This document shows positions 39,480 to 51,356 of a stretch of DNA of 64,000 nucleotides, piece after piece. Made by a program: the position numbers and the translations under genes. Source of the stretch: Astrocystis sublimbata (taxonomy: Eukaryota > Ascomycota > Sordariomycetes > Xylariales > Xylariaceae); NCBI GenBank assembly GCA_022453515.1, contig JAJNNY010000025.1, positions 1 to 64,000 of the forward strand, written 5' to 3'. Every line of letters starts with the position of its first letter. Positions within the stretch are counted from its first letter, which is position 1. The notes beneath the pieces were generated by a model. It was not told the origin of the DNA. It worked only from the letters and a program-made list of their open reading frames with translations, and did no database searches.

Positions 39480-40326
39480 ATATCTTTTGATATTTTTAAA
39501 TGTTGGAATTAGGGTAGCTAATATATAAGTAGCTAGTACAACCTATACACGCCTATATAAGTAGAAACAGTACTACACCTTATATAACCTAGATCTAGTC
39601 CTTACGTAATATATTATATTTACTTATATAGCTTATAATTTAATAAGTTATAAGCCTAGAAGCTTATTACTTAACAACCCTTTAAATTTATTAAATTCTA
39701 TAATTTATATTATTTATTTAAAATATAGATTTATTAAATTCTATAATTTATACTACTTATTTATTATTTTAATAGTAGTTTTTATTATTAATTTTTTTAA
39801 GTTAAAACTATTAAAATATTATTATTAAGATATAATAGGTAATAAGTTATATATTAAATAATTAAATACTATTATAAAAGTATACTTTATTATTATTATT
39901 TAAAAAAACCATTATTTATTATATTCTGATATTATTTTATTTTTTAAAATCCCTTTTTATTACTTTTTATTATTATTTTTATTAAAAATTATTACTAAAT
40001 TTATTAACAAAAACTATTTTTAACTTATTTATATATATATACAAACTATAATAATTCCTAAGAAACCTTAAACCCGAATTACTTAGTTAATAATATTTAA
40101 ACTTTTATATTAAAATTAATTAAACTAAAAATTATAAATTAAAATAAATAAATAATAATATAAATAATAAAATCTAAACAAAAATCTATTAAGTAATATT
40201 TTTTATTTTAACTAATTTTATTTATAAAAATATAAAAAACCATAACGTGGTTTATAAGCAGGTCGGCCACTTTTTACCGCGATATGACTTTCTATTTTTA
40301 ACGCATCTTTATTCTATAATAAAACA

Positions 40327-41416
40327 ATGTTTGCCTTAATTCAAGAAGCTAGAATTCTCCTTGCTATCGAAGCCATTCGTTCCTCTAAAAAAATCAGCAT
40401 TCGACGCGCTTCCGAAATCTACAACGTCGCGCGTTCGTTAATACAGGACAGAATAAACGGCCGTACTACCCAAGGCGATATTCGCGCCAATAATCATAAT
40501 CTAGATGCAATTAAAGAGGAAATCGTTCTTAGTTATATTATCGACCTAGATAACCGAGGATACTCGCCTAACTATGCTAGCATTAAAGATATGGCCGATC
40601 ATCTGCGGAAAGCACGCGACGCGCCACCCGTTGGCAAGCACTGGGCGAGAAACTTCGTCAACCGCCATCCAGAGCTCAAAACACGCTATACGCGTGGTTA
40701 CGACTTCCAGAGGGCCTTATGCGAAGATCCTAACATTATAAGCGCGTGGTTTGAACGTTTCTAGCGCGTAAAAGCCAAATTCGGTATCCACGATGATGAC
40801 GTATGGAACTTCGACGAGACCGGCTTTATGATGGGCATTATCTCGTCCTGCATGGTAGTTACGCGCACCGATCGATGTGGCAAGCGTAAAGCAGTGCAGC
40901 CTGGCAATCGGGAATGGGCAACTGCGATTTGTGCCATTAATTCTCGCGGGCTATTTATCCCGCTGTATATTATCCTCTAAGGCATCAACCACCTCGAGCC
41001 TTGGTTCCGAGATTGCGATATTCCGGGCACTTGGCAATTCTATATAAGTGCCAACGGGTGGACTATAAACGAAATAGGCCTCGACTGGGTTAAACATTTT
41101 AATAAACACTCTATATTGACCCGTATCAGTATATATCGTTTGTTAGTGTTAGACTAGTACGAGAGCCACGTTTTAGTTAAATTTAAAGAGTATTATAAAG
41201 AGAATAAAAATATTATAATTCCCCTGCCTTTACATTTGTCTCACATTACCCAGCTACTTAATATTAGGCTTTACAGCCCGTTAAAGCGGAAGTATAGCAA
41301 CCATATCTTAGATTTTGTTAAGTCACATATTAACCATATTACTAAGTCTAAGTTCCTTATTATATTTCGTACTTTGTTCTTAGAGGTTTTTATAGAATTT
41401 AATATCCTAGGCGGCT
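40327..41416 (+). pseudogene. Fot1/pogo-type DDE transposase, N-terminal and central part (broken)
   Basis: Tc1/mariner superfamily transposase of the fungal Fot1/Pot2 (pogo) group. The ATG at 40327 opens with a Psq-type helix-turn-helix (MFALIQEARILLAIEAI.., ASEIYNVARSLIQDRING), then a CENP-B-like segment (VGKHWARNFVNRHPEL). The DDE region follows: WNFDETGF (first Asp), the TRTDRCGKR..VQPGNREWAT segment, GLFIPLYIIL, and a Leu-Asp-stop-Tyr-Glu-Ser-His segment holding the second Asp. In-frame stops at 40762 (TAG), 40978 (TAA) and about 41149 (TAG) replace likely Gln or Trp codons, so it is inactive. The frame is cut at 41416 by the chromovirus insertion and resumes at 48429. A possible inverted-repeat start lies near 40244 (ACGTGGTTTATAAGCAGGTCGG), but the other end was not found. 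Confidence 0.85.
41412..41416. repeat. Target-site duplication CGGCT, left copy
   Basis: Five bases directly before the left LTR of the chromovirus, identical to the five directly after its right LTR (48429-48433). Confidence 0.92.
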
Positions 41417-41906
41417 TGTAACGACTGCTCTATCCTTAATACGGAGTATAGGGTAGAGAAGGGGTTTTAGTGGGTATATGTTCCTAAGGATAAGGGCTAA
41501 GCTTATAACAAAGGATCGCTGAGCAATATAAGGTATCGTTTACTAAGTTGTTAGGAGGTTACTCCTATTCTAAGAACTGTTGGTATGCTTAGATTAAATA
41601 GTGAAGTAAGGAAAGATTAGATATATAGGAATGCTGTTGAGGCTATATAGTATTTCCTTCCTTTATATAACTGTTGGATTACTGTTGCTTCTGTGATCCT
41701 GGATTACTGGGATTACTGCGATCCAAGTGAGCCTGGCTCCACTGGATCACTATTTTTTTTATGATCCCTAAGGTTTTTTGTCATGTGACCCTTTAACTTT
41801 TTTTCCCGTATATTCTTTTATTTATAGTGAGCTTTACTTGACTCCGCTGGGATATGCTTTTGCGCTAGGCCTTTCTAACTGGTCCGTACGTTGTTGGTCC
41901 GTAATA
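41417..41906 (-). repeat. LTR (3' LTR in element orientation)
   Basis: 490 bp, starting TGTAACGACTGC on the + strand and ending GTAATA, where the other copy has GTAACA. Compared by eye with 47939-48428, nearly all differences are transitions, with T here where the other copy has C at many sites. Confidence 0.92.
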
Positions 41907-41922
41907 TTATCCCTCTCTTTCT
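41907..41922 (-). other. Polypurine tract of the chromovirus
   Basis: On the minus strand AGAAAGAGAGGGATAA sits directly against the 3' LTR. This is the position and composition of the plus-strand primer. The same 16 bases occur at 50867-50882 in the second element. Confidence 0.8.
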
Positions 41923-41980
41923 GTTTTTGTTGTTTTTAATAATCTTTTTTCCTGTAAGTTATTTTCTCCTCCTTCTTACG

Positions 41981-42595
41981 ATGCCTGATCGTGTAACGAA
42001 ATCGCGCAAATCTCGCGAGCGGTCTTCTTTCCGTGCTTTTGCTGAAGCTAATGGGGTGGTAGCCGATATGCCATGTATTTACTGTTTTTAATATAGCTTT
42101 TCCTCCTTTTGTTGCATTTTTGAAAATTCTTTTTGTTGTTAGGAGTGTATCTGTTGTGGGCGATTGTGTAATAGTGTCCTAGTGGCTTCTTTTTTGTCTC
42201 GCGTTATTAAGTAATAAAAGAGATTAGATACGGAAGAGTCCGAGGCTAGTAATTAACTACTAGTTTTTCACGAATAGCTAGCGGTCCTTTAGTCCCAATT
42301 GGCTTTTGCTGCTAGTCGGTTATTTCGGATTTGTAAAATTTGTGTAAGAGTGAAGGATCGTGGTGCTGAGCTTTTTTAGCGTGGAATGATTGAACTTGAT
42401 CGGGAGGACGATATCCTCCCTGTTTTAGACAGTTATAAGCGCTGTCTTATTTCCGACCTTTAGGATGCTGGGGTTGCTCCTGGTATTGATTGGTCTTCTT
42501 TCGGCTTGGGCGAGGATTTCTTGGGTGATTTCTTTGGCCCTTTGGTTGTGGTTGGTCAGGGTGCTGGCGGTGAAACTGGTTCACCTTCTGGCTAG
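41981..42595 (+). pseudogene. Antisense accessory ORF of the chromovirus (cysteine-rich, RIP-broken)
   Basis: A 205-codon frame running opposite to gag-pol, between the polypurine tract and the end of pol. It begins with ATG at 41981 (MPDRVTKSRKSRERSSFRAF), followed by ADMPCIYCF, a Cys-rich stretch with C-x2-C and CxxCC groups, a basic/heptad-like middle, and an acidic end with WSSFGLGEDFLGDFFGP and GGETGSPSG before the stop. One frame stays readable throughout but has nine internal TAA/TAG stops and no TGA, as expected if Gln codons were mutated by C-to-T changes at CpA. Its last 149 bp overlap the pol 3' end on the other strand. A homologue exists in the second element at 50166-50771. Function is unknown; the Cys pattern suggests zinc binding, by inference. 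Confidence 0.75.
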
Positions 42596-45500
42596 CCTTT
42601 TGTAAGTGTTTTTTAGGTTCCTATATGTTTTCTGTATGTAAGTATTCTTTTTATTTTATTAGGTATTCGAACGTGTTTTTGTTCTGATGTGAATTTAGTA
42701 TTTTTTCGACTTCGAATTTTTTGCGATCGGGTTCTGTTTCGAGCTTAGTTTCGAGCTTGGCGTTATTGGGTGCTTTTTTTAGTAAGGAGATGTGGAATAC
42801 CGGGTGTCTCCTTATTCCTTTGGGTAGTTTAAGCAGGTAGTTTAATTTTGATCTGATTTTTTTAATCTCGAATGGTCTAATCCATTTGAAGTCTAATTTT
42901 TCGCTTGGTTTTTTTGTTTCGATGTTTCGTTTTAAGAGATAGATTTTATCTCCCTCCTTTAAGGTTGGCTTTAATAACCTGTTTTTATTATAATAGGTTT
43001 TTATTTGTTCCTGGATGAACGTGAGTTTTTGTTGTAGTTTCTGTTATAGGCCTAAGGCTGTCTTGGTTTGATTTTCTGCTTGAGGTGCTGTGATTCCCGG
43101 AATCGCGGTTTTTTCTTCTGGGTTGAACCCATAGTTCGCCTTGAAGGGTGATATTTTTATAGACTTGTTAACTGAGCTGTTGTAGGTATATTCTGCTGCT
43201 AGTAATAACTTAACCCAGTTGTTTTGTTGTTTGTTGAGGTAGTATTGGAGGTACTGTTTTAGCGTTTGATTTAGCTTTTCTGTCTGTCCGTCTGTCTAAG
43301 GGTGGTAAGCTATAAACATTCTGTGCTTAACCCCTAATGCTTTTATAAGTGATTGCCAGTATTTGGAAGCCATTGTGCTTCTTTGATTAGTAATGATTTT
43401 TTCTAGGAATCTGTGCTTGCTAAAGACATGCTTTAGAATAGTGTATCTAAGTTCTTCTACAGTGCTTGCTTTTTTGTAGGGTATAAAAAGCCTGTACTTG
43501 GTAAGTCTTTCTGCTATGACTAAGATAGAGTCGAACTCTACTCCTATTATTGGTTCTTTAGACCTGGGTAGTTTCATAATAAAGTCGAACGTGATTATTT
43601 TCTATGCCTTGTCTGGTAGTTTGATCGGGTTTAATAGTCCGTATAGCTTATGTTGTGATATTTTTGCTTTTTGATATATATTGTATTTCTTAATAACTTG
43701 TCTGACATAGTTCTTTATGCCTAAGAATCCGTAGTATTGTTTCAATCTTTGATAGGTTTTAAAGACTCCCTGGTGTCCTACTAAGGGGTACTTATGTATT
43801 TCTTGTACTAGTTTTGTACAGAATTCGTCTGGTATATATAGTTTCCTTTTATAGTTTTTATACATCTGATTATTATGATCTGGGGATTGATTTTAACTCT
43901 TAAGGAATTCTTTGATTTATTGTGTCTATTTGTTATGGTTAATCCTTATGGCTACACTAATCTGTAGTGTACGGTCGTTATTTTTTTCGAATATTTGTAT
44001 AGCTCCTACCACTATAAGTCCATCTTCCTTATTGCCCTACAATAGGATCTGGCTTTTCTTTTCGCCTGTTTGTTTATAGTTACTTCTTTAATTCAGAATG
44101 TTAGCCCGGATATTCTTTTTTCTTTTAACATAAATAATTTTGAAATTAAACTGCGATAGGAATTCTGCCTATCGTATTTATCGTTTGTTTAATATTTTAG
44201 TGGTTATAAAGGTTGTAAGGTTTTTGTGATCCGAGTAGACTTTTACTAGTTGTTCCGAGCTATAGAAATAATATTCCTATTCTTCGAATACTCGGATAAT
44301 AGCTATGAGTTCTTTGTTTAAGATTAGGTAGTTTATTTATAGTCCTAAGAACTTTATTAAGAAGAATACTACTAGATGTAGTTTTCTATTCTTATCTCGT
44401 TAACCTAGTTATCTACCTATTGTATCGTTACATATGTTAACTTCGATTTTAAATTCCTTGTCTGGATTAGGTAATCGTAATACTGGATCTAATAATACTT
44501 TCTCCTTTAGTATATTAAACGCCTGTTGTTCTACCTCTGTCTATCGGAATTCGTTGTTTTTCTTTGTAAGGTTTATAAGGGGTGTGGCGATTTTCCTAAA
44601 TCTAGCAATGAGAGCTCGGACGTAGTTCGTAAATCCTACGAACGCCTGTACGTCTGTAATGCTTTTTGGTACTGGCTAATTCCTTATTGCTTCGATTTTC
44701 GCGTTTTGGATTCGTACTTTTCCTAGAGTAATCGTGAATCCCAGAAAGTCCACTTTCTGCTTATGAAATTTGCTTTTTTTAGTGTTCACTTTTAATTTGG
44801 CGTCTTGTAGTGCCGTAAGCACTTATTGGATATGTCCCTTATGTTCTTCCATGGTTTCTGAATAGATTAGGATGTTATTAAGGTATATTATCACGAATTT
44901 ATCGAGAAATTCGCGTAGTATATCTGTAATCATGGCTTGGAAGCTTGCTGGTATATTAGTAAGCCCGAATGGTATTACCAGGTATTTGTATAACCCGTAA
45001 GGTGTTCCGAATGCCGTTTTTTCTTTGTTGCTTTTAGCGATTCGTAGTTTGTGATATAATTTTGGTAAATCTAAAGCGGTGAACCATCTGGCTTTATATA
45101 ATCTATCTCGTAGGTTGTTGATTCTTGGTAACGGTCCTGCGAATTTCTTGGTTTTTGTATTTATATCTCTGTAATTAACATATAGCTTCCATTTAGGCTT
45201 GCCGTTTTTGCCTGGTTTCTTGGGTACCTATAGAATCGGTGATCTCGCTAATAATTCTGATTTTCGTATGTACCCCCTGGCTAGGTTTTTTCGCAGATAT
45301 TCGTCCAATTCTTACAGTTGTTTACGGTTTATGTGGTATAATGCTTAGTGTTTTAGGGTCTCGCCTTCCTTGATTGGAATATAGTGATCCTATCTACTGT
45401 ACTCTGGTAATCCTATTTCCGTTAGTTGTGCTTTAAACAGGTCGCTGAATTCTTGGTACTGTTCCGGTAACTTATCCGTTAGTATTGGCTTAGGCTTTTT

Positions 45501-47857
45501 GATTAATAAATAAATGCTAAGTGCCTTTATAGATTTGCGTGAGTTCTTTCCAATAGATTCCTTAGAGGCTAAATTTTTTTTTAGTATATCCTATTAAAGC
45601 TGGCCGGTGTTTTAATTCATTTTGGGATTGCTTACCTGCAACTAGGGTATTTTTAAAATAATATTGTGCCTGGATATTTCTATAATATTAAGCTTAAGCT
45701 GTTTTTTGTGACCCTGGATATTAAAAGGAAGTTCTATAGTTTCCCTTCTAATAATCCTTTGATTGTATGTTATATGACTACTATTAACGGTTGTAAGTGG
45801 GTAGGGGTTGTCCTTAAGCTTTTATTCTAGGTCAAGCTTATTGACAATTTTTAGTAAGATGAAGTTTGCTTGTACGCCTGTGTTAATCATGGCTGCTAAC
45901 TTTTTTCTATTGTATTGTAATTTTATTGTGAGTTGTGTAGATATCTCTGTGTTTGTAGCGCATAACGACTTTTCGATGCTTTAAGTTAGTTATTGTTGTT
46001 TTACAACTGTTTTTTGTTGTTTTTTGATTGTTATGCTATATGTTGTTGGTTTTTGCCCTTTATGGCCTGGACCTTTTCTGTATAGTTCCGTAGCTCTTCT
46101 TTGGACCATATTGGTTTTCTATCTAGTATTGCTATGACTAGTGGTTTGGAGTCCTGACTCCTTTGTACAGGTGTTTTGTATATGAGTTGTTTCTATCGAG
46201 CCTTTTTGTTAGCTTTGTTTTTCTTTCTCTAGTTCCTCGCTTTCTTATATGCGTGGATTTTGTAGTAGTTGCTAATACACTCTTTTAACTTATCTCCCCC
46301 TAGAAAGCATTCTTTAGGCCATATGGGGTCTGATTCGAATAGATAAAATCCTCTAGGGTCGTAGTAAGTAACTACTAGTTGTCCTATTTCGTTTTTTTAG
46401 TATGGTCTATCTATTGGTTTTCTATTGATCCGTTTTAAAAACCAGTTGTTTTAGATCTTTTTAACTATATGTTTATTATATCGATATACTATATAGGATA
46501 CCTAGGAGATTTTTTTATATTCTGGATTCTTTAGTACTAGTATCTTTTTTCTATTTATTATGGTTCTATCGTATAAGTAGCTCTGTGATACATATCCTGC
46601 TATGTATCGTGGCGTCTCGAGAGTGTTGGTTCCTATCCCTATAATTAGTGGGTGGTTTTTTATTCGTTGTATTTCCTAAAGTCGATCTTATAATCTATAC
46701 TCGGGTATTATTTCTAGAGTTGTTAGTTCAGTCTTTCTGACTTCTTGTTCTTCTTGTTCTTGATTGGTTATAAGGGTGTCTCCCTGTTGTATGGATTTGG
46801 CTACTGAGTGTTTAATTCTTTCGAACTCAGTCTGGTGTTTATATTAATCGTATGCGTAGCTTATGTCTTTGGGACATGACTCGCCTTCTGGCTAGTCCCT
46901 ATTTTTAACTATTGGTGTACTGCTTATGTGTATTATTGCGATCTATTGCGTACCGTTTTTGGCTACCGATGCTTGTTTTCCTTCGGGTACTCTTTTGTTC
47001 TTTCGTTCCCTTTGGGGTTTAGGGTATTTTTGTGTATAATGTCCTATTTGTTGGCAATTGTAACATTTGACTTGCTTGAGGTCTTTTTCTGCGGCGTCAA
47101 CCTCCATTGGGCCTGGGTGTGTTCCTGTGGCCGTGGATTGGTTCCTTTGTGCCTTCTTGGTGTTGGCCATATACGTGGCTCCTTTCCCTCGTTTTTGCAT
47201 GCGTCTTTCGTACAGACGATTGTCGATTTTGATTGCCGATGCAATGTAGTTATGTAGTTCCTTTGGTTGTTCGATTCGGAATAACTCGTTTTGGACTTCG
47301 TCCTTTAGTCCCTTATAGAATACGGATATTAGGTTGTTGTTGTTATTCTAAGTTGTGAGTGCGAGCATTTTTTTGAACTCGGTGGCGTACTTGCTAGCTG
47401 ACCTAGTCTGTTGTAGGTCTAGTAGCCTTCGTTCTGCTCGTCTTTCGGCTTCTGGATTACTATACATATCCGTAAGGGCCTTTTCGAATCCCTTTATATC
47501 GGCGAATGCTTCTTTGGTGTCCTCTGACTAATTCTTTTCCTCGTCTTCGATGAATTCTTTCATTTTTGGCTCGAACCATTCCAGTGCTTCTCTAGTGAGG
47601 AATCCTGCTATGCAGAGGATCTTCTCTCCTTCCGAGGGAAAGTCCTCTCCGAAGTGCTATATATAGGCCTTGGCCTGGGTTAGGAATCCTTTTAACTGGT
47701 TTTGTTTCCCGTTGAATATGGTTGGTCGAGTTAGCTTGTAACGCTTTGGCTTGGATGTTGTAAGTAGTTGGTTTTCGAGCTATTTGTTGGCTTTGTCTAA
47801 CTGATTAATTCTTCTGTACAACTGGTCGATAATCTTTAGGACTTGTTTTTAAGTCAT
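42447..47857 (-). pseudogene. gag-pol of the chromovirus (inactivated)
   Basis: Gag begins at an ATG at 47857. It carries a retrotransposon gag domain (TRPTIFNGKQNQLKGFL.., ALEWFEPKMKEF) and a zinc knuckle near 47050 in which the last Cys is changed (CYNCQQIGHYTQKYP). Pol follows on the same strand: a protease with AMINTGVQANF, where DTG has become NTG; RT with YLNNILIYSE near 44885, where the catalytic YxDD has become YxNN; RNase H with VYSDHKNLTTF; integrase with an HHCC finger (VGHQGVFKTYQRLKQYY) and catalytic core (ITNQRSTMASKYWQSL, again Asp to Asn); and an integrase C-terminal domain (LPKGIRRHPVFHISLLKKAP) leading into a chromodomain (FEVEKIL.., EYLIK..). The frame ends at 42447. Stops are scattered throughout. 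Whether gag and pol were one frame cannot be decided from the decayed copy. Confidence 0.85.
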
Positions 47858-47938
47858 ATTGGGTGTCTGAGCTTGCGTAGCTATTACGTCCTATTGCTCA
47901 GCTTACTTCGTAGCTTAACTAAATAAGACTATTTAAAA

Positions 47939-48428
47939 TGTAACGATTGCTTTATTTTTAACACGGAATATAGGGTAGAGAAGGGGTCTTAGTGGGTATA
48001 TGTTCCTAAGGATAAGGGCTAAGCTTATAACAAAGGATTACTAAGCAATATAAGGTATCGTTTACTAAGTTGTCAGGAGGTTACTCCTATTCCAAGAACT
48101 GTTGGTATGCTTAGATTGAATAGTAAAGTAAGGAAAGACTAGATATATAGGAATGCCGTCGAGGCTATATAGTATTTCCTTCCTTTATACAACTGTTGGA
48201 TCACTGTTGCTTCCGTGATCCTGGATCACTGGGATTACTGCGATCCAAGTGAGCCTGGCTCCACTGGATCACTATTCTTTTCGTGATCCCTAAGGTTCCT
48301 TGTCACGTGACCCCTTGACCTTTTTTCCCGCATATTCTTCTATCCATAGTGAGCCCTATTTGACCCCGCTGGGATGTGCTTCTGCGCTAGGCCTTTCCAA
48401 CTGGTCCGTACGTTGTTGGTCCGTAACA
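47939..48428 (-). repeat. LTR (5' LTR in element orientation)
   Basis: 490 bp, + strand TGTAACGATTGC to GTAACA. It pairs with 41417-41906 and is followed directly by the duplication CGGCT. Confidence 0.92.
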
Positions 48429-48552
48429 CGGCTTTAGAGGGTCTGGTTTAATGTTTTTCGACCCTTAAGAAGTTATTTCGAAGCCCAATGTCCGCTTGAG
48501 GTCGCTGTTGCTAATTCCTGGTAGTTAAGAGCTGCCCGACTTTTGGGTTGCT
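48429..48552 (+). pseudogene. Fot1-type transposase, C-terminal continuation
   Basis: After the second CGGCT the interrupted transposase resumes in the same frame (GGFRGSGLMFFDP, stop, EVISKPNVRLRS). This corresponds to the C-terminal FDPxxVxxKLDVRLRTP region of Fot1-type transposases. Further in-frame stops (TAA) show the same decay. It is interrupted at 48552 by a solo LTR. A short possible continuation (TPKML) follows at about 49054-49070. Confidence 0.75.
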
Positions 48553-49050
48553 TGTTACGAACCAACAGGGCGCACGACCTGTTGAAGAGACCTAGCGCGA
48601 GAGGGGATAACCATGCCCAAGCTAGTAACGCAAGACGGGACCAGGAGACAAGCCACACGCCACGATAAGGCGCCACAAAGGTTACGTAATAGATAGGAGG
48701 ATCGGAAAGCGATCTAGATATCTAAGATCAGGGGATAGCTATACAATCTAGCTATCTAGGATCAAAAGATAGGAGAAATATTTTATAATTTATATAAAGA
48801 TATAAAAAAAAAAATACTATATAGTTTTAATAATATTCCTATATATTTAGTTTTATTTTATTTTATTATTTAATTTAAATATATTATTAGTTTTTAAAAT
48901 AGGAATAATTTCTTAATAATTTAATAAATAATACTTTATATTATTTAGCGATCCTTTATTATAAACTTAGCTTTTATTTTTAGGAATATAAACCTATTAA
49001 AACCCCTATTTTACCCTATACTTTGTATTATAGATAAAGCAGTTATTATA
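48553..49050 (+). repeat. Solo LTR of a related chromovirus
   Basis: 498 bp beginning TGTTACGAACCAAC and ending GTTATTATA (decayed from GTTGTTACA). It is flanked on both sides by TTGCT (48548-48552 and 49051-49055), so this is a complete insertion reduced to one LTR by recombination. The left end is GC-richer and less mutated than the right half. Confidence 0.8.
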
Positions 49051-50165
49051 TTGCTTAAACGCCTAAAATGTTATAAAATATAATATATATTAGAAAGCAA
49101 AAATATCACGATATAAGCCATACGGGCTATTAAACCTAATCAAACTACTAAACAAAGCATAAAAAATAATCGCGTTCGATTTTATTATAAAGCTACCCAA
49201 GTCCAGAGAACTAATAACAGGAGTAAAGTTCGACTCTATCTTAGTTATAGTAAAAAGACTTACTAAGTACGGGCTTTTTATACCTTACAAGGAAGCAAGC
49301 ACCGCAAAAGAACTTAGATACACTATTTTAAAACATATCTTTAGCAAGCACAGATTCCCAAAAGAGATTATTACTAATTAAGGAAATACAATAGTTTCCA
49401 AATACTAGTAATTATTTATAAAAACATTAAAAGTTAAATATAAAATATCTATAGCTTACTACCCTTAAATAAACAGATAAATAGAAAAGCTAAATTAAAT
49501 ACTAAAACAGTACTTTTAATACTACCTTAATAAATAGTAAAACAATTAGGTTAAATTATTACTAGTAGTGGAATATGCTTATAATAGCTTAATTATAAGT
49601 CTATAAAGATATTACCCTTTAAAGCGAACTATAGGTTCGATCCAAAAGAAAAAACCGCGATTCTAGGAATTATAGCACCTTAAGCAGAAAATCAAGCCAA
49701 GGCAGCCTTAGGCCTATAATAGAAACTATAACAAAAGCTTACGTTTATCTAGGAACAAATAAAAGCCTACTATAATTAAAACAGGTTATTAAAGCTAATT
49801 TTAATAAAAAAATAAGGTCTATTTTTTAAAACAAAATATCGAAATAAAAAAACTAAACAAAAAATTAGATTTTAAATAGATTAAACTATTTAAGATTAAA
49901 AAAGTTAGGTTAAAATTAAACTACCTGTTTAAGCTACCCAAAGGAATAAAAAAACACCTAATATTCTATATCTCCTTACTAAAAAAAGCACCTAACAATA
50001 CTAAGCTTGAAACCAAACTTAAAACAGAACCCAACTATAAGAAATTCGAAATCAAAAAAATACTAGATTTACATTAAAACAATAATACAGTTAAATATCT
50101 AATAAAATAAAAAGGTTACTTATATACAAAAAACATATAGAAACCTAAAAAACACTTATAAAAGG

Positions 50166-50771
50166 CTAGCCAGAAAGTAAACCAGTTTTACCGCTAGCAT
50201 CCTAACTAACCAAAGCCAGAAGGGTAGGGTCAAGATCCCAAATCGAAAGGGAACCAAAAGAAAAATCGGAAAAAGCAATAGCTAAGGATAAACGAGCCTA
50301 CTCTTCTACTATTCGCCCCTACTCCTCCTTTAAACGTTCTTATTCCTCCAGCTTATCCAGGTTCTAAAAACCATGCTAAATAAACTTTACACCTCGCTTT
50401 CAAAGAAAGTCAGACTGTCGGCCTAATTAACTAATACGGGCAATAGCGGCAGTAGTTTTAGCAGCCAACCTTTCTAGCTACTGCTTAGTAGTATAACGCT
50501 CCTTATTAATATAATCCTTCTCGGCACGAATTTACCGAAAAAAAACCAGTAATATATAATTCCCGTTATAAAAAAACACATTTATATTACTATAGTAATT
50601 ACACCGATTCTAATTCTCTAGTATTTTATATATAAAACCCTTATTAAAACAATAAAAACAGGGTATAACCTCGAAACCGAATTAACTAATAGATTTAACT
50701 AATTTATAATAACTTTCGGTAAACGATTTTTTCTATATATTATAATTAGTTTTAGTAATATAACCAGATAT
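50166..50771 (-). pseudogene. Antisense accessory ORF of the second chromovirus
   Basis: A 202-codon minus-strand frame in the same place and orientation as 41981-42595. The start codon is now ATA (50771), probably a mutated ATG. It shares EVIPCFYCF with the first copy's ADMPCIYCF, then a Cys-containing stretch (NRCNYYSN), a Gln/Glu/Lys/Leu-rich, coiled-coil-like middle, and a C-terminus ASGKTGLLSG against GGETGSPSG in the first copy. Many in-frame stops are present, nearly all TAA/TAG with one TGA. It overlaps the + strand pol/chromodomain tail by roughly 215 bp. Confidence 0.7.
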
Positions 50772-50866
50772 AATACAAAAAAAAAAGCAAACTAAGGAAA
50801 GAAAAAATTCGATAAGCTAGGAAAAGGAAAAAACACTCACTAGTATTTATTAAGGGTAATAAACCT

Positions 50867-50882
50867 AGAAAGAGAGGGATAA
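50867..50882 (+). other. Polypurine tract of the second chromovirus
   Basis: AGAAAGAGAGGGATAA directly before the 3' LTR, identical to the tract of the first element. Confidence 0.8.
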
Positions 50883-51356
50883 TATTACGAACCAACTATA
50901 GGATAGGCCAGTTAAAAAGGCCTAGCGCAGCTACATAACGAGGGGTTATACAAAGCGAGCACAAATACGTAAATATCAGATATAGGGGTATTTAAAGTCA
51001 CGTAATACATCTCTATAGAACTAATAAAGAATCTCTATAATCTCTATAGAAACAATAGAAACAGGTCTCTATAGTCTCTATAGAAACAATAGAGACATAT
51101 AATTATATAAAAGAAAGAAATACTATATAGCCTCAACAGCATTCCTATATATCTAGTCTTTCCTTACTTCACTATTTAATCTAAGCATACTAACAGTTCT
51201 TAGAATAGGAATAACCTCTTAACAACTTAGTAAACAATACTTTATATTACTCAGCGATCCTTTGTTATAAGCTTAGCCCTTATCCTTAGGAACATAAACC
51301 CACTAAGACCCCTGCTCTACCCTATACTCAGTGTTACAGATAGAGCAGTTGTTACA
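50883..51356 (+). repeat. 3' LTR of the second chromovirus
   Basis: 474 bp, starting TATTACGAACCAAC (from TGTTACG) and ending GCAGTTGTTACA. Roughly the last 300 bp are nearly the same as the corresponding part of the first element's LTR, while the first part differs. Confidence 0.85.

Follow-up and report, generated by a model that had tools for sequence, protein, structure and literature searches.

A RIP-decayed antisense accessory gene exchanged together with the U3 region between Ty3/gypsy chromoviruses of Astrocystis sublimbata

Introduction

The gene brtn of the Boty element in Botrytis cinerea was reportedly described by Zhao in 2011. In the passages that deal with it, brtn is an additional antisense gene of the Boty-like Ty3/gypsy elements found in Botrytis and Sclerotinia (PMC8365987, PMC7264820, PMC4227169 and PMC5987419), and among plant elements the antisense open reading frames (ORFs) of the Retand lineage are given a TRP28 domain with predicted DNA binding in the relevant part of PMC11963269. 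The functions of the antisense genes of long terminal repeat (LTR) retrotransposons are called unknown in PMC7264820, and neither antisense nor zinc occurs as a word in the main text of LTR Retrotransposons in Fungi (PMC3248453). Here we consider an antisense frame found twice in a 64,000-nucleotide stretch of Astrocystis sublimbata DNA (contig JAJNNY010000025.1, positions 1 to 64,000; hereafter the window), which contains two Ty3/gypsy elements decayed by repeat-induced point mutation (RIP), copy 1 on the minus strand and copy 2 on the plus strand. A first-pass annotation of the window had named plant elements such as Grande as precedents for an antisense gene of this kind; brtn, which it did not cite, has to be added as a fungal precedent.

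We conclude that this frame is what RIP has left of a genuine accessory gene of the retrotransposon, one that encoded a protein of about 200 residues. What is new here is that the antisense gene and the U3 region differ among element types A–D that share pol and R-U5. In a literature of which the subscription papers were mostly outside our reach, our searches turned up no account of an antisense gene of Zn2Cys6 type in any fungal retrotransposon, or of such a gene being exchanged along with U3.

Results

The elements and the antisense features discussed first are as follows.

41417-48428, minus strand: copy 1, a RIP-decayed Ty3/gypsy chromovirus insertion of type A with both LTRs (LTR pair and Pfam)
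49076-51356, plus strand: copy 2, a left-truncated element (self-comparison of the window)
41981-42595, plus strand: antisense gene of copy 1, 205 codons including the end stop, with 9 internal stops, all TAA/TAG
50166-50771, minus strand: antisense gene of copy 2, type E, with ATA as start codon and 13 internal stops (12 TAA/TAG and 1 TGA)
41907-41980, plus strand: antisense gene leader of copy 1, 80% pyrimidine, containing the polypurine tract complement
42567-42716, minus strand: pol chromodomain of copy 1 (Pfam Chromo E 6.4e-10, stops read as X), into which the antisense gene runs at its 3' end

The element is a chromovirus, with a chromodomain recognised by Pfam Chromo at the end of pol. 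For both copies we confirmed the coordinates and strands of the two frames, which the first-pass annotation had placed opposite pol, between the pol end and the polypurine tract. This is the position of an aORF-3R, antisense to gag-pol and between pol and the 3' LTR, with the last codons overlapping the chromodomain end. A donor-like GTAAGT/GTGAGT motif stands between the LTR and the start codon (41954-41959, plus strand, and at the same place elsewhere; types A, B, C and E by eye). In the copies read by eye no acceptor was seen between this motif and the ATG, and a splice donor upstream of the ATG was dropped as a candidate because residues from the ATG onward look alike among types A, B, C and D.

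Thirty loci were fetched in this genome and 24 were used for a six-frame profile search, the other six (L032, L033, L038, L040, L041 and L042) being fragmentary or having no clear end. Protein searches with the window frame alone, or with a type B frame alone, gave no match, and intact proteins were reached only by a profile of ten X-masked frames of types B, C and E, which found eight proteins (E 1.2e-33 to 3.6e-14). These intact homologues, known as protein sequences alone, have 178–225 residues, and two are named Verticillium dahliae hypothetical proteins; the intact relative on whose existence the first-pass annotation had staked its proposal is thus available at the protein level. One of the eight, P0001, matches the window at 41981-42514 (E 6.8e-14) and 50307-50720 (E 7.1e-15), and as copy 1 is of type A and absent from the query profile, its match is independent of that profile. 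Together P0001 and P0003 match at least 16 distinct places in the genome at E < 0.001; four or more in-frame stops interrupt every one of the 16, and none of them is therefore intact. The integrase end of pol was found in the same locus for 13 of these places, and for the other three the stored locus stops 1, 7 and 197 bases past the match, at a contig end. P0008, a V. dahliae protein in the set, differs at its N-terminus, where other residues stand in place of the first half of the Cys cluster; an error in the gene model or truncation of the copy may be the cause.

When a profile of the intact proteins was compared with 144 frames (six frames for each of the 24 loci), 14 frames matched at E < 1e-4, all of them antisense, and no sense frame matched at E < 1. 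Antisense matches at E < 1e-4 were found in 14 of 18 backbone loci, that is, in most copies, as is asked of an aORF-3R; the remaining loci were L018 (0.16), L019 (0.047), L025 (6.2) and L027. In a more distant chromovirus family of the same genome (L034-L037, L039 and L043, at 33–38% in the integrase end versus the main family) none of the six loci matched the antisense gene (best E 6.7), and the viral contigs searched contained no relative. The intact proteins and the antisense-only matches support the claim of the first-pass annotation that a conserved accessory gene lies on the antisense strand and has a Cys pattern of zinc type.

These matches also dispose of the suspicion that the frame arose by chance, as a shadow of pol or of the base composition. 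The shared end GxTGxxSG, earlier offered as evidence for the gene, lies opposite the chromodomain end in both copies (in copy 1 at 42569-42595, within 42567-42596 where pol reads ASQKVNQFHR, and likewise in copy 2); it is therefore no independent evidence for an antisense gene, and its conservation may serve pol. Openness alone proves nothing either, because the pol frame of copy 1 has just 6 stops over the antisense stretch, compared with 9 internal stops in the antisense frame. Both facts would suit such a shadow, but in both copies of the window the antisense frame is matched by intact proteins, no sense frame among the 144 is matched at E < 1, and we regard this explanation as refuted, with next to no probability left to it. 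Origin of the frame from the pol tail is rejected on the same grounds.

The decay itself fits a gene that was open before RIP. The RIP index TA/AT is 1.24 and 1.53 in the elements versus 0.78 in the flanks. Stops and Cys residues were counted in 14 of the 18 backbone loci (L015 is frame-shifted, L030 has no start in the frame used, and the alignment of L019 and L025 was not confident; for L026 and L031 the counts take in a few codons beyond the end stop). In these copies the antisense frame has 80 TAG, 55 TAA and 1 TGA stops, while the other five frames have 6 to 83 TGA each, and in the window internal stops are indeed nearly all TAA/TAG, as first noted (9/9 in copy 1 and 12/13 in copy 2). The accompanying view that the stops are former Gln codons holds in part: 31 of the 47 stop columns show an amino acid instead of a stop in some sister copy, and this is Gln in 17 columns, with Arg in 12, Trp in 10 and a few others as well. 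The start codon is ATG in eight of the 14 copies and ATA in six. Every one of the 84 cells in the six Cys columns holds either Cys (47) or Tyr (37), i.e. TGY or TAY, which is the outcome RIP predicts; copy 1 retains all six Cys and copy 2 reads CCYCYY. The Cys columns and the intact homologues bear too on the proposal that antisense RNA, not protein, is the product and controls the element through double-stranded RNA. The frame does lie opposite the 3' end of the genomic RNA, and antisense RNA functions are taken up in part of PMC7264820, but intact proteins with invariant Cys and columns restricted to Cys and Tyr need constraint at the protein level. RNA as the sole explanation is largely refuted by this, and we consider it highly improbable.

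In place of a ratio of nonsynonymous to synonymous rates (dN/dS) we used a RIP-blind test in which transversions are counted by codon position. For types B/E, 15 of 195 third positions have transversions versus 9 of 390 first and second positions (p 0.0027), which supports the antisense frame, and when B is compared with E using unanimous columns only, the counts are 11/198 vs 6/401 (p 0.0067). The window's own type A (3/205 vs 7/410, p 0.70) and type C (one transversion in all) are uninformative, and the pooled result (p 0.008) is driven by B/E. Among type E copies, L028/L029 and L026/L031 differ by 21 bases (seven codons) in the helix region, with the frame kept.

The protein carries six cysteines in a cluster located in copy 1 as follows.

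42074-42169, plus strand: six-Cys cluster of copy 1, C-x2-C-x8-C-x8-C-x2-C-x6-C, all six Cys kept

In the intact homologues P0001-P0007 (P0008 was left out) the spacing is C-x2-C-x6-C-x8-C-x2-C-x6-C, with all six Cys invariant in 7/7. Zn(II)2Cys6 proteins follow the rule C-x2-C-x6-C-x5-12-C-x2-C-x6-8-C, which the intact homologues obey and from which window copy 1 deviates at one gap (x8). Models of the intact homologues have two short helices at the Cys pairs and then a long helix; the tail is predicted to be acidic and to contain an invariant Trp (figures from the six proteins other than P0005 and P0008). Pfam Zn_clus was matched at E <= 1 by five of seven intact members and was the sole family matched by more than one. 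Foldseek was run on the models of P0001 and P0002, and for P0002 18 of 19 rows (12 entries, 8 proteins) were Zn2Cys6 domains, with weak scores (best E 0.38); in a second look at Foldseek's own candidates 9/9 rows were Zn2Cys6, and 6/7 for P0001. The row titles give this class for PPR1, and for most other entries we take it to be the same. Sequence searches of the PDB gave weak matches only (LAC9 E 2.5 and Cep3 E 2.3), outscored by the unrelated chains RIPb (0.11), TRIM63 (0.016) and eIF2 subunit 1 (0.0092); the decayed frames had no match in Pfam, and the intact proteins none of use in NCBIfam. The six-Cys domain resembles a GAL4-type zinc cluster, yet it is not filed as such, and the antisense protein looks zinc-binding and is probably DNA-binding.

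As RIP yields only transitions, we used transversions to measure older divergence between element types, comparing 15 pairs of seven copies (L014, L018, L021, L022, L024, L019 and L029; copies of the same type are not independent). Among types A, B, C and D (nine pairs), pol differs by 0 or 1 transversion per ~1,300 bases and R-U5 by 0 to 3 per 240, and the block bounded by the chromodomain end and the U3/R border has 25.4 to 27.8% transversions between these types. The two within-type pairs have no transversions in pol, 2 and 4 in R-U5, and 0% in the block. Eight shuffles of the block for each of three pairs gave 28 to 35%, always above the real value, and therefore a trace of distant similarity persists between the types. 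Type E differs from A, C and D by 27.0 to 29.6% in the block and shares it with type B (2.6%; pol 4/697). The left edge varies with the pair: one chromodomain end is found in types A, C and E and another in B and D, while gene and U3 are common to B and E. Since pol, silent sites included, and the non-coding R-U5 are unchanged, fast change in place explains the block poorly, and the elements are mosaics in which a block of ~0.9 kb, made up of the gene, the polypurine tract and U3, has been exchanged as one on a single backbone. The intact proteins from elsewhere look mosaic in sequence as well: around the Cys cluster (60 columns) P0006 agrees with P0004 in 58/59 and with P0007 in 22/57, and in the tail P0006 agrees with P0007 in 42/42 columns (last block 10/16), against 30/42 for P0004.

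The U3 regions exchanged with the gene are rich in direct repeats. In the U3 of copy 1 the relevant features are as follows.

41417-41906, minus strand: 3' LTR of copy 1, with U3 at ~41657-41906 and R-U5 at ~41417-41656
41676-41750, no strand assigned: five GGATYAC/GTRATCC motifs in the 3' LTR U3, candidate binding sites

Six such motifs are found in the 5' LTR U3 and 22 in the whole window including both U3s, a rate that predicts 0.17 per 490 bases. U3 statistics were obtained for 14 loci (no U3 was recovered for L017, L025, L027 and L030), and in 13 of them no more than 18 of 400 dinucleotide shuffles gave at least as many direct 8-mer repeats as observed; there was no enrichment in the U3 of L020 (91/400) or in R-U5 of any locus. 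Inverted repeats are less consistent than direct ones, and are not enriched in the U3 of L014, L020 (none seen), L019 (121/400) and L028 (75/400). The commonest U3 7-mers differ by type, and are GGATCAC in A, AGTGAGC in C, CTATAGA/ATAGAGA/ACAGAGA in B and E, and in D only ATAGCTA, seen three times.

The remaining features of the window are as follows.

49076-50224, plus strand: integrase part and pol end of copy 2 (self-comparison of the window)
50883-51356, plus strand: 3' LTR of copy 2, U3 type E (self-comparison and U3 typing)
48553-49050, plus strand: separate LTR adjoining copy 2, U3 type D (87% to L019 over 253 bases)

Copy 1 is flanked by a 5-base duplication, CGGCT (41412-41416 and 48429-48433), and its LTRs (41417-41906 and 47939-48428) have 490 bases each and differ by 42 transitions, with no transversions or gaps. 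Its Pfam matches are RVT_1, Integrase_H2C2, Tf2-1-like SH3 and Chromo above the cut-off, with rve and zf-CCHC under it. The LTR to the left of copy 2 (~48553-49050) does not pair with the right LTR of copy 2, as its U3 is of type D versus type E, so the window holds three U3 types (A, D and E); standing directly before a truncated type E copy, it is either a solo LTR or the product of a deletion-fusion. Copy 1 sits in a decayed transposase gene (40288-41416 and 48429 onward) with HTH_psq and HTH_Tnp_Tc5 above the Pfam cut-off and DDE_1 just under it, presumably pogo/Fot1-like. When the flanks are joined across the CGGCT duplication, the frame runs on for some residues.

Discussion

The joint exchange of gene and adjoining promoter suggests that the gene regulates the element, and we lean, by a little, towards an accessory gene for a self-encoded regulator that is exchanged with its promoter. 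The gene would be transcribed antisense from the 3' LTR, and its protein might dimerise through the long helix and bind the repeated U3 motifs of its own type, switching the sense promoter type-specifically. Exchange as a unit would keep regulator and sites matched. The two breakpoints suggest a likely route: with two RNAs packaged together, the first strand would transfer from one to the other at the conserved R, and a single template switch at the pol end would complete the exchange. The intact homologues do not reach the Pfam Zn_clus cut-off of 21 bits (best 18.1 bits, for P0002). Related phages swap their repressor/operator regions, and more tentatively, as an idea we think possible though doubtful, gene and U3 could be an immunity-like cassette of the same sort, a self-specific regulator with its own binding-site array, swapped by co-resident elements on one backbone to escape cross-regulation or repression by relatives.

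The linkage has other conceivable explanations. As the gene adjoins U3 no functional reason is required for the two to travel together, and the protein might act elsewhere in the cycle, for instance in target choice, in packaging or in bringing the pre-integration complex into the nucleus, with the exchange of U3 as a passenger; nuclear-entry and retroviral-accessory-like roles are discussed for plant antisense ORFs in PMC7264820. Set against this are the order of zinc cluster, long helix and acidic tail, which resembles that of DNA-binding regulators, and the enrichment of direct repeats in U3, and we judge it rather unlikely. Copies in this genome have been RIPped, and so the protein might instead be a counter-silencing factor, the exchange being driven by escape from host silencing of U3. 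Tnt1, a Ty1/copia element, offers a parallel. Passages in PMC1838419 describe for the Tnt1 of Solanaceae a conserved coding part with divergent U3 modules and subfamilies, and propose U3 diversification as an escape from host control, but escape of that type requires no linked gene and positive support for an anti-silencing role is lacking here, making this the less likely of the two. If each protein binds only its own U3, as the self-encoded regulator would, retrotransposons carry exchangeable regulator/promoter modules, which would help explain new subfamilies on an unchanged backbone. The role of antisense genes becomes directly testable in a fungal family that combines a recognisable type of DNA-binding domain with intact homologues and with several gene/U3 pairs on a common backbone.

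Among known systems, human T-cell leukaemia virus type 1 (HTLV-1) encodes HBZ, a basic leucine zipper (bZIP) protein and antisense regulator from the retroviral 3' LTR, and the likeness is to a would-be antisense regulator from a 3' LTR, with no sequence relation claimed. Tnt1 differs in that the passages on it mention no linked antisense gene (PMC1838419). Like brtn, which a review groups in the part concerned with genes between pol and the 3' LTR (PMC7264820), the gene is an additional antisense gene of a fungal Ty3/gypsy element; unlike it, and comparing by description only, it has a six-Cys cluster of zinc type and is exchanged as a cassette, features of which the passages on brtn make no mention. 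With Grande gene23, RIRE2 and the Retand ORF it shares, in the sections of PMC7264820 and PMC11963269 on these, the antisense position between pol and the 3' LTR, retention across families and a possible nuclear or DNA-binding role; the domains these sections name are TRP28 or SMC, with no six-Cys cluster among them, and Retand is a non-chromovirus plant lineage. Finally, in contrast to HAP1, PPR1, PUT3, LEU3, LAC9 and GAL4, the antisense protein lies under the Pfam cut-off, has weak fold scores, is encoded by a retrotransposon and totals ~200 residues, yet its intact homologues are like these regulators in Cys spacing and, as modelled, in the two short helices followed by a long one.

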